Source of the DNA: Candidatus Hydrogenedentota bacterium
GTDB lineage: Bacteria > Hydrogenedentota > Hydrogenedentia > Hydrogenedentales > SLHB01
NCBI GenBank assembly: GCA_029552745.1
Contig: JAKPDK010000152.1
Location: 310,001-374,000 of the forward strand
Reading direction: 5' to 3'
Length of the DNA: 64,000 nucleotides
Below, one piece after another: positions 53,801 through 58,363 of the stretch (its first letter is position 1; every line of letters begins with the position of its first letter). The notes under the pieces are model-generated. The model was not told the DNA's origin. It saw only the letters and a program-made list of their open reading frames with translations, and made no database searches. The translations under genes and the position numbers were made by a program.

Positions 53801-54505
53801 TCACGCCCGATTCAAATGACGATTGTGATAAGGCAACAGAATGACGAACCCTCGCTCGGGCTGGTAGAATATAGTCCCATCGTGTTCCTGAACTATAGTT
53901 TGTGCCAGCGAAAGCCCCAGTCCAAAATGGAGTTCACTTTTTGTCGTGAAATAGGGCTCAAAGATTTTTTGGTGAAGCTCAGTGGGTATGGGTTCGCCAG
54001 AATCCCAAATGGCAAACTCTACTGAATCGCCATTCTTGCAAACGGACATGCGTAGAAGTTTGTGCTCAACGCCTTGGATCGAATCAAGCGCATTCATTAG
54101 CAGGTAAACCAAAGCCAAGGTGATTTTGGGCAAGTCTACCGCAACCGTGCCCAAATCTCCTTGGAAATTGCGCTCAATGTTAACCCCTTGGGTGCGAATA
54201 GTGTACTGCAAGAGACTCAGAGCACGTTCCGCCAGTTGAGCAGGGTCAATGATTCGGATGTCTGTTCTCTCTTTACGGGCAATATCCGTGAGTGCGCCTA
54301 CTAACAAAGTGGCTTTTCGCACAGCAGAGATGATTTCCCGTAACATTCGCTGGGATTCAACAGAAATACTAGGATCAACTGAAAGCAGTTCCGAGTAAGC
54401 CAATATGACCCCCAACAAATTATTTACGTCGTGAGAGACACTATTGACACACATGCCGACTTGCGCATAGCGGAACAATTTGGCTATTCGTTCATCATCC
54501 GTCAT
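53801..54505 (-). CDS. Soluble histidine kinase
   Basis: Cytoplasmic sensor kinase without a membrane segment. The H box VNSVSHDVNNLLGVI near 20-34 carries the phospho-acceptor His. The HATPase domain has N box LALVYLLMNALDSI, G1 IWDSGEPIP, F box IFEPYFTTK and G2 HFGLGLSLAQ. The N-terminal 20 residues are too short for a sensing domain, so it may act through a partner. Start at 54505 has AAGGAA 7 bases upstream. The nearest receiver is the orphan at 29.7 kb. It lies downstream of the triple ribbon-helix-helix gene. Confidence 0.92.
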   Translation of the reverse strand: MTDDERIAKLFRYAQVGMCVNSVSHDVNNLLGVILAYSELLSVDPSISVESQRMLREIISAVRKATLLVGALTDIARKERTDIRIIDPAQLAERALSLLQYTIRTQGVNIERNFQGDLGTVAVDLPKITLALVYLLMNALDSIQGVEHKLLRMSVCKNGDSVEFAIWDSGEPIPTELHQKIFEPYFTTKSELHFGLGLSLAQTIVQEHDGTIFYQPERGFVILLPYHNRHLNRA

Positions 54506-54623
54506 CTCATTTCCTTCTATATTTGATACCCTATTCGGCACCCCTGCATGCGTTATTTTTGTCCAAAAAGATCCCCCGCGTCAAAACTTTTTTGAGAAGC
54601 AAAAAAAGAAAACTAGAAGATGC

Positions 54624-55583
54624 TCAGAAACCCTGCGTATCTTCTGGCGATAACGGAATGATTGCGTCAGGCTTAACTATCTGTTGCTGAGGGCGCCCTA
54701 GTTCATCTTGGGCTACTACCAAGGCCCACTCAGGACCTGAAGCCGCTGGCAAAGGAAATAGCATCGGTTGGATAGGTGGGGAGAACAGACCGATATCTTT
54801 CCCGCGACGTGCCGGTATAGACATTCTTGCATGATCGTCGTCTTCTTCGGAAGAAAAGAGGTCGAGCGGAAAACCTTGAGAAGCATCCTCAGATCCTATC
54901 TTGAGTTTCTTCTTTCTTTTTTTGAACCATTGAATCTGATTCCTAAGCATATGAGCCACGAGGCTCCTGGTCGGCAGATTTTGCTCACCAGCTAGTTTTT
55001 GGACTTGTTCCACCAAATCCCTAGGAAGTGTTAGCGAAACATAGTTTGCCTGCCTTTTTTTTCTATGAGACACGGCTTCCGCAGGCGATTGTGTCGATTT
55101 GTCGTCATCGTCTTTCCAAGGAATTGTAATGGGTATTTGAAGTTGGTCGTTGCTTGGAGAAATTGCCACCACTTCAAAGCGGGCACGTTTCATTTCGACC
55201 ACAGTTAAATAGTCTTCCAGCGCCTGTCTAATGACTTTCGAACGGTTTCTTTGGGTGGTAATCGCACAGATAGCTTCGATTTCTTTCTCATCTGAAGGAG
55301 AGATGCGAATCTCGAAAGAAGCCTCAGCCGGTTCTTTGGTTCCTTTACTCGTGGGAACGGGGTTACTTTGGTTATTGAAATCAGACATCTCACCCGTTTC
55401 GGCTTTCAAAAACGCCACCCGAAACCCCCGCGACTTAACCACAACAAGCGAGTAATACACTGATAGAGCCGCCCGTACCGCGCGGCTGCGTGTCCTCAGA
55501 TTGGTAACAGACATTAGAAAATCAAGTCGCTCTAAATCGCATTTCCTGAGGCGAACTCTAAACCTTCTTGACGGATGCTTCAT
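54624..55583 (-). CDS. Protein with three ribbon-helix-helix-like units
   Basis: A 319-residue predicted DNA-binding protein. Three segments fit the Arc/CopG pattern (a polar beta strand then two helices with the second starting R-S or T-R-S): about residues 6-46 (RRFRVRL ... RTRSRAVRAALSVY), 88-127 (ASFEIRI ... RNRSKVIRQALEDY) and 179-220 (NYVSLTLP ... PTRSLVAHML). The first two are each followed by a similar extra strand (RGFRVAFL; ARFEVVAI), showing an internal duplication. The C-terminal 100 residues are acidic and proline-rich. The start at 55583 is preceded by GAGG at 8 bases. It lies upstream of the kinase gene. Targets unknown. Confidence 0.78.
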   Translation of the reverse strand: MKHPSRRFRVRLRKCDLERLDFLMSVTNLRTRSRAVRAALSVYYSLVVVKSRGFRVAFLKAETGEMSDFNNQSNPVPTSKGTKEPAEASFEIRISPSDEKEIEAICAITTQRNRSKVIRQALEDYLTVVEMKRARFEVVAISPSNDQLQIPITIPWKDDDDKSTQSPAEAVSHRKKRQANYVSLTLPRDLVEQVQKLAGEQNLPTRSLVAHMLRNQIQWFKKRKKKLKIGSEDASQGFPLDLFSSEEDDDHARMSIPARRGKDIGLFSPPIQPMLFPLPAASGPEWALVVAQDELGRPQQQIVKPDAIIPLSPEDTQGF

Positions 55584-55668: not shown

Positions 55669-55674
55669 ATTATA
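55669..55674 (-). promoter_or_regulatory. -10 element (TATAAT) for the triple RHH gene
   Basis: Consensus TATAAT on the minus strand about 86 bases before the chosen start; the -35 is weak. Confidence 0.45.
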
Positions 55675-55859
55675 GTCTCCTTCAAATAAAACAAAAAGCG
55701 TGTTGCCGTCAGGAAGTGTGCAGCATGGGACTCTGTTAAGGAAAGAGCTCATGGTGAGCCCAACGTAAGCTACTCAGCACGAATAATGCATCACGTTCCG
55801 TGCTTTTGCGCGGCTTTACAAAGGTTGCTACTTATTCTTACCTTAAATCTTCGGACTCT

Positions 55860-57952: not shown

Positions 57953-58363
57953 TTAATGCCGCTCTTCCCGGGACTCTGCGTCAAGTGATTGCCTTGCTTT
58001 GAGATACATCCCATCAAGTGCGGCAAATAGCGAGCCTGCTTCCAGAACAAAACCCGAGATTTCACCCTCAGGCAACAGACCCGTGTGTTCGACAAGTCGA
58101 AGTAGGTGTTGCAGATGTCGCGCTGATTGACGTGCTGAGGAAATGTGACTCAAATAAGACCGTTTACTGGAAGTCACCAGTGCGTCTCCAGTATCTTCCG
58201 ATAAAGAAATGGCCGCCACAGCAATCTGGTCAAGCAGAGGCCCCGGAAACACGTCCTTGACTTGCACAATCCAGCGTAACAGGTCCGCCGCGAATTTCAT
58301 CGAACGTTGTGGCACATCCCGCGGACGAATTTCCTTTATGTCGGCAGTTCTTGTAAGTCGCAT
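57953..58363 (-). CDS. Four-helix-bundle protein (S23-like)
   Basis: 136-residue all-helical protein matching the small four-helix-bundle/S23 ribosomal-IVP family (SMKFAADLLRWIVQVKDVFPGPLLDQIAVAAISLSEDTGDAL, SSKRSYLSHISSARQSARHLQHLL). The family is widespread, of unknown function, and often linked with 23S rRNA intervening sequences or mobile regions. Here it stands alone between the ECF operon and cysS. Confidence 0.82.
   Translation of the reverse strand: MRLTRTADIKEIRPRDVPQRSMKFAADLLRWIVQVKDVFPGPLLDQIAVAAISLSEDTGDALVTSSKRSYLSHISSARQSARHLQHLLRLVEHTGLLPEGEISGFVLEAGSLFAALDGMYLKARQSLDAESREERH

Follow-up and report, generated by a model that had tools for sequence, protein, structure and literature searches.

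Results

Gene and domain layout at the locus

The stretch of DNA analysed here (64,000 nucleotides, referred to as the window) carries on its reverse strand a gene for a protein with ribbon-helix-helix (RHH) units. The features of the gene and of its immediate surroundings are as follows.

54624..55583, (-) strand: complete coding sequence, ATG at 55583 and stop at 54624; 319 aa
55380..55568, (-) strand: unit 1, with ribbon 6-12, helices 14-26 and 32-51 and an extra hairpin 55-60 and 66-68 (AF2, alignment)
55131..55322, (-) strand: unit 2, with ribbon 88-94, helices 96-109 and 114-133 and an extra hairpin 136-141 and 147-151 (Pfam RHH_1, AF2, homology to unit 1)
54906..55046, (-) strand: unit 3 (residues 180-226), with ribbon-like YVSLTLP, two helices and a basic C-terminal end, KKRKKK (sub-cut-off Pfam matches, profile match, AF2 helices)
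54732..54905, (-) strand: linker (residues 227-284), disordered, mildly acidic and proline-containing (AF2 block pLDDT 31-47, composition)
54651..54728, (-) strand: conserved C-terminal motif (residues 286-311), WALV[VL]AQD..G.P....V.PD..IPL, a possible beta hairpin
55669..55674, (-) strand: exact TATAAT hexamer, 85 nt before the ATG
53801-54541, (-) strand: histidine kinase gene (HisKA and HATPase), next gene downstream of the RHH gene

An in-frame TTG at 55694, 5′ of the ATG, gives a longer start option. The ATG was preferred because the five homologues described below align with the protein from this same starting point. The G+C content of the gene (0.476) and of its third codon positions (0.45) is near the values of its neighbours. 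These values give no sign that the gene was acquired recently.

Pfam RHH_1 (PF01402) matched the protein with E=4.5e-10 in three stretches, the best of them at residues 91-126. A typical CopG / RHH_1 protein contains a single unit and forms its dimer from two chains. The initial annotation had proposed three RHH-type units in one chain, and the three RHH_1 stretches agree with this layout; the third unit is the weaker one and was seen as helices only in AF2.

A family of six proteins in Hydrogenedentota

A search among relatives identified five homologues at 30-33% identity. The family is thus present in 6 of the 68 Hydrogenedentota genomes searched, all 68 of which belong to one order. All six members come from one taxonomic family, where they account for 6 of 25 genomes. 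The scan of the collection by alignment used three rows. A profile built from all six proteins revealed no further members in the 68 genomes of the phylum, and no relative of the RHH protein was found in the viral contigs, phages and plasmids searched. The other RHH_1 proteins of the phylum, as far as they were read, are NikR-like or small antitoxin-like and fall outside the three-unit family. This set of proteins is a new family of tandem RHH proteins that is specific to Hydrogenedentota.

Two forms of the family are distinguished by the C-terminal region. Form A (the window protein and the homologues of genomes G013 and G023) has the conserved C-terminal motif; form B (G012, G007 and G010) has a different, longer C-terminal region. 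The reading frame of the G012 homologue (L015, 8320-10155 (+)) extends to 612 aa and thereby overlaps murG, which is on the opposite strand; this suggests either a frameshift in the assembly or an extension that overlaps.

Units 1 and 2 as products of an internal duplication

AF2 was run on alignments of three sequences rather than all six. In both unit 1 and unit 2 the prediction gave a strand and two helices followed by a small hairpin, and most blocks had a pLDDT of 81-91. For unit 2 the first helix was also called as 96-108 and the last strand as 147-149. The strand-helix-helix order of the RHH superfamily (MetJ/Arc/CopG) was thus seen in both units by Pfam as well as AF2, and the monomer prediction called for by the initial annotation returned this order in two of the three segments. 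When the family profiles of unit 1 (residues 1-75) and unit 2 (residues 84-160) were compared, hhalign gave a probability of 98.3 and a score of 72.6 over 59 columns; the best of 60 column shuffles scored 15.6. The extra strands alone gave a weak match (15.3 versus 13.9 for shuffles), and their common origin is judged by their position inside the duplicated unit rather than from their own sequence. For units 1 and 2, both sequence profiles and structure prediction support an RHH fold. Judged by these profiles, units 1 and 2 are true RHH units derived from an internal duplication, which includes the extra strands, as was proposed earlier.

Predicted pairing of units 1 and 2 within one chain

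The pairing of the two ribbons was considered in an AF2 model of residues 1-156 alone (pTM 0.77, mean pLDDT 80). A pTM of 0.77 for two similar halves indicates a confident prediction of how the halves are placed relative to each other. In this single-chain model DSSP assigned ribbons 6-12 and 88-94 both as strands, seven residues each. A strand call by DSSP requires hydrogen bonding. Since both ribbons were called strands and the later hairpins are self-partnered, the ribbons would most simply be bonded to each other within the one chain. The antiparallel pairing of two ribbons into a DNA-reading sheet, characteristic of the RHH superfamily, is predicted here inside the chain, from the pTM and the equal length of the two strands. 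The intrachain pairing anticipated in the initial annotation is supported, by prediction.

The residues of the ribbons point in the same direction. Ribbon 1 reads S-[KR]-R-x-R-x-R in all six proteins, with R7, R9 and R11 invariant, and ribbon 2 reads E-x-R (S/F-x-E-x-R), also in all six, with E91 and R93 invariant. These residues are kept among proteins of about 30% identity. The charged residues alternate like one face of a strand, and the polar and basic residues expected on the exposed ribbon face of the RHH superfamily were found (R7/R9/R11 and E91/R93). In an antiparallel RHH ribbon the central R9 would be near E91, and their opposite charges would make 1-2 pairing more likely than pairing of like units (1-1 or 2-2). 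The two ribbons are unlike (R-x-R-x-R versus E-x-R), and the reading head is therefore predicted to be asymmetric. A search for an operator by repeats 5′ of the gene gave no shared element.

A domain-swapped dimer, in which units 1 and 2 of different chains pair with each other to give two heads with unit 3 as an accessory, would show the same strand contacts in a monomer model, as AF2 folded one chain only. However, the linker between units 1 and 2, residues 69-87 or about 19 in all, seems sufficient for the two to pair in the same chain, and the known tandem RHH proteins TraY (PMC12117103) and AvtR (PMC5569661) act as monomers. The swapped arrangement is thus considered quite unlikely.

A fold search of the PDB with the 1-156 model (Foldseek), blind to the hypothesis, bore on intrachain pairing. 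The first-ranked match was chain 9f0x_G of the F relaxosome (probability 0.87, TM by target 0.65, with a weak E of 0.63 and rmsd 9.4), which was identified as TraY by a sequence check. DndE (4lrv) ranked second (E 0.71, also weak; rmsd 4.9). Chains of the same relaxosome entries made up 11 of the 50 matches listed. The outcome of the search supports the model by the rank and kind of the matches and is not a proof of it. Both top matches, TraY and DndE, carry tandem RHH units in a single chain, and units 1 and 2 therefore most likely pair as an intramolecular pseudo-dimer. When the full-length model was used for the fold search, the disordered tail swamped the result.

Unit 3 and the C-terminal region

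The fragment of the window protein that contains unit 3 scored 23.1 bits with Pfam CopG_antitoxin and 18.4 bits with RHH_1, both below cut-off. The corresponding segments of the five relatives gave no RHH match of weight in Pfam. A unit 3 profile of these five relatives, with the window protein left out, was compared with a profile of other RHH proteins from the phylum; the score was 26.6 against a shuffle maximum of 13.3, and the match begins only at the end of the ribbon and continues from there. Direct profile comparison gave no match of unit 3 to units 1 and 2. From these comparisons, unit 3 appears to be a weaker but detectable RHH relative, RHH-like in its helices, and apparently separate in origin from the 1-2 duplication. 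The search of related genomes recommended by the initial annotation yielded five homologues in which the unit 3 ribbon is not recognisable.

Unit 3 could also be a degenerate two-helix remnant that makes protein contacts or serves as a basic DNA anchor, a reading compatible with the 1-2 pseudo-dimer. The ribbon pattern is lost in five of the six members and, in AF2, helices 188-200 and 205-228 were predicted at pLDDT of about 60-70 while residues 180-186 were not called a strand. However, the absent strand is no argument by itself against a ribbon, because a lone ribbon cannot show in a single-chain model, and the window protein retains YVSLTLP together with the sub-threshold CopG_antitoxin and RHH_1 signals. 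The chances of the remnant are put at slightly short of even.

The region after unit 3 had been described as a long acidic, proline-rich tail. This holds for residues 227-284, with a net charge of -4 and 8 Pro in 58 residues; the description missed the conserved motif in which the tail ends. In the three homologues that carry this motif (window, G013 and G023), 16 of 43 columns are invariant. AF2 predicted strands at 287-292 and 298-303 with pLDDT of about 47. Elsewhere in the phylum the motif was not found, save for one weak partial match. A partner probably docks at this motif.

Gene neighbourhood and promoter

The TATAAT reported upstream of the gene is exact and is placed 85 nt before the ATG as listed above. 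There are 13 exact copies in the 64 kb window and the hexamer, being too common, is uninformative as a promoter on its own. No full promoter was scored at the TATAAT (55674-55669) on the strand of the gene.

Downstream, the histidine kinase gene follows (54541-53801) as had been noted. The kinase lacks a sensor region, and a response regulator was not seen next to it. Upstream of the RHH gene are an uncharacterised gene, an anti-sigma-like gene and an ECF sigma factor. The contig is 410 kb in length and has ordinary chromosomal genes nearby (cysS, PIG-L family). The neighbours of the relatives are unrelated: murC-ftsQ, murG, a flagellin-like gene and others. No gene in these five neighbourhoods is shared with the window, and none of the relatives has a histidine kinase beside it. 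A link to the kinase was rejected on this ground; the two genes most likely lie side by side by chance. The cell-wall-gene setting (murC-ftsQ, murG) of two relatives was also considered and is not common to the others. Since the relatives have unrelated neighbours, the protein appears to be a stand-alone regulator that acts in trans.

The structural match to TraY raises the question of a conjugation accessory protein, a relaxosome factor like TraY, in place of a transcription regulator. TraY is the closest structural match, and a MobA/VirD2-type relaxase domain is encoded in the same genome on a separate contig (L057, G000:C157:1143-1526). Against such a role, the gene is on a 410 kb contig among ordinary chromosomal neighbours, searches detected neither a TrwC/TraI-type relaxase domain nor a relative on plasmids or phages, and the relatives adjoin murC-ftsQ, murG or flagellar genes. 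This role is very improbable. The weak match of unit 3 to the CopG_antitoxin profile might likewise indicate that the protein, with its extra RHH units, is the antitoxin in a toxin-antitoxin pair. However, the neighbours are the histidine kinase and the ECF sigma/anti-sigma cluster with no adjacent small toxin gene, the protein has 319 aa, and the PADLOC match was only E=0.025; an antitoxin is extremely improbable.

Two other genes were noted. The G013 homologue is adjoined by a divergent gene for 537 aa (L018, 5218-6828 (+)) that has no Pfam match and is unrelated to the window kinase by BLASTP. In the window, 57953-58363 (-) matches the four-helix-bundle / 23S rRNA intervening sequence protein family, with TIGR02436 just over and PF05635 under the cut-off.

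Discussion

The protein is a probable bacterial DNA-binding protein; DNA binding itself and the regulation of transcription are assumed from the fold. In the model proposed, units 1 and 2 would fold on each other within the chain to form one RHH pseudo-dimer, whose two unlike ribbons would insert into the major groove and recognise a non-palindromic sequence. Unit 3 would be an RHH-like segment gained separately and carried on a flexible linker; it would most likely hold two chains together or increase the affinity for DNA. A dimer would set two pseudo-dimer heads on neighbouring sites, and the C-terminal motif would dock a partner. The model as a whole, i.e., a stand-alone regulator with a 1-2 pseudo-dimer, an added unit 3 and a docking tail, is regarded as moderately probable. 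Alternatively, unit 3 may form a conventional RHH head between chains. The dimer would then have three heads in a row, two asymmetric ones around a symmetric one, on a long composite operator; this arrangement is unlikely.

F TraY is a monomer with the RHH dimer fold within one polypeptide (PMC12117103). Units 1 and 2 resemble it in having two RHH units in a single chain, by prediction, and TraY is the best fold match of residues 1-156. TraY differs in its size, about 131-133 aa, which leaves no room for a third unit or a long tail, and in working in the relaxosome at oriT. The oriT, relaxase and transfer gene setting of TraY was not seen at the locus, where the neighbours are ordinary chromosomal genes, and TraY was not returned when the family profile was compared with PDB sequences. 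DndE, the second structural match (4lrv), has two divergent RHH domains in one chain, for which asymmetric DNA reading has been proposed (PMC10853773). It shares the tandem RHH in a single chain but is part of phosphorothioate modification systems and is without a third unit. AvtR of Acidianus filamentous virus 6 is a monomer with two linker-joined tandem RHH motifs that acts as repressor and activator (PMC5569661). It differs in being an 11.9 kDa viral protein without a third unit, and was not among the 50 fold-search matches listed for 1-156. The likeness to CopG / RHH_1 (PF01402) consists of the three RHH_1 stretches.

A new DNA-binding arrangement had been suggested for the protein. The single-chain RHH pseudo-dimer is, however, already known in TraY, AvtR and DndE, and no new principle of DNA binding is involved. 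No protein with three RHH units was found described in the open-access full-text literature searched. Tandem RHH proteins are few. With an odd number of RHH units, a protein must choose between pairing within the chain and pairing between chains, and the family is therefore a natural test of the shift from symmetric to asymmetric DNA reading by RHH proteins. It also provides a candidate regulator in Hydrogenedentota, a little-studied phylum in which, to our knowledge, almost no regulators have been characterised.

A viral protein of 326 aa, BFVD entry Q684E8, was matched by the full model over 139 columns (4.4 A, probability 0.96, TM 0.28) and is possibly another tandem RHH protein.
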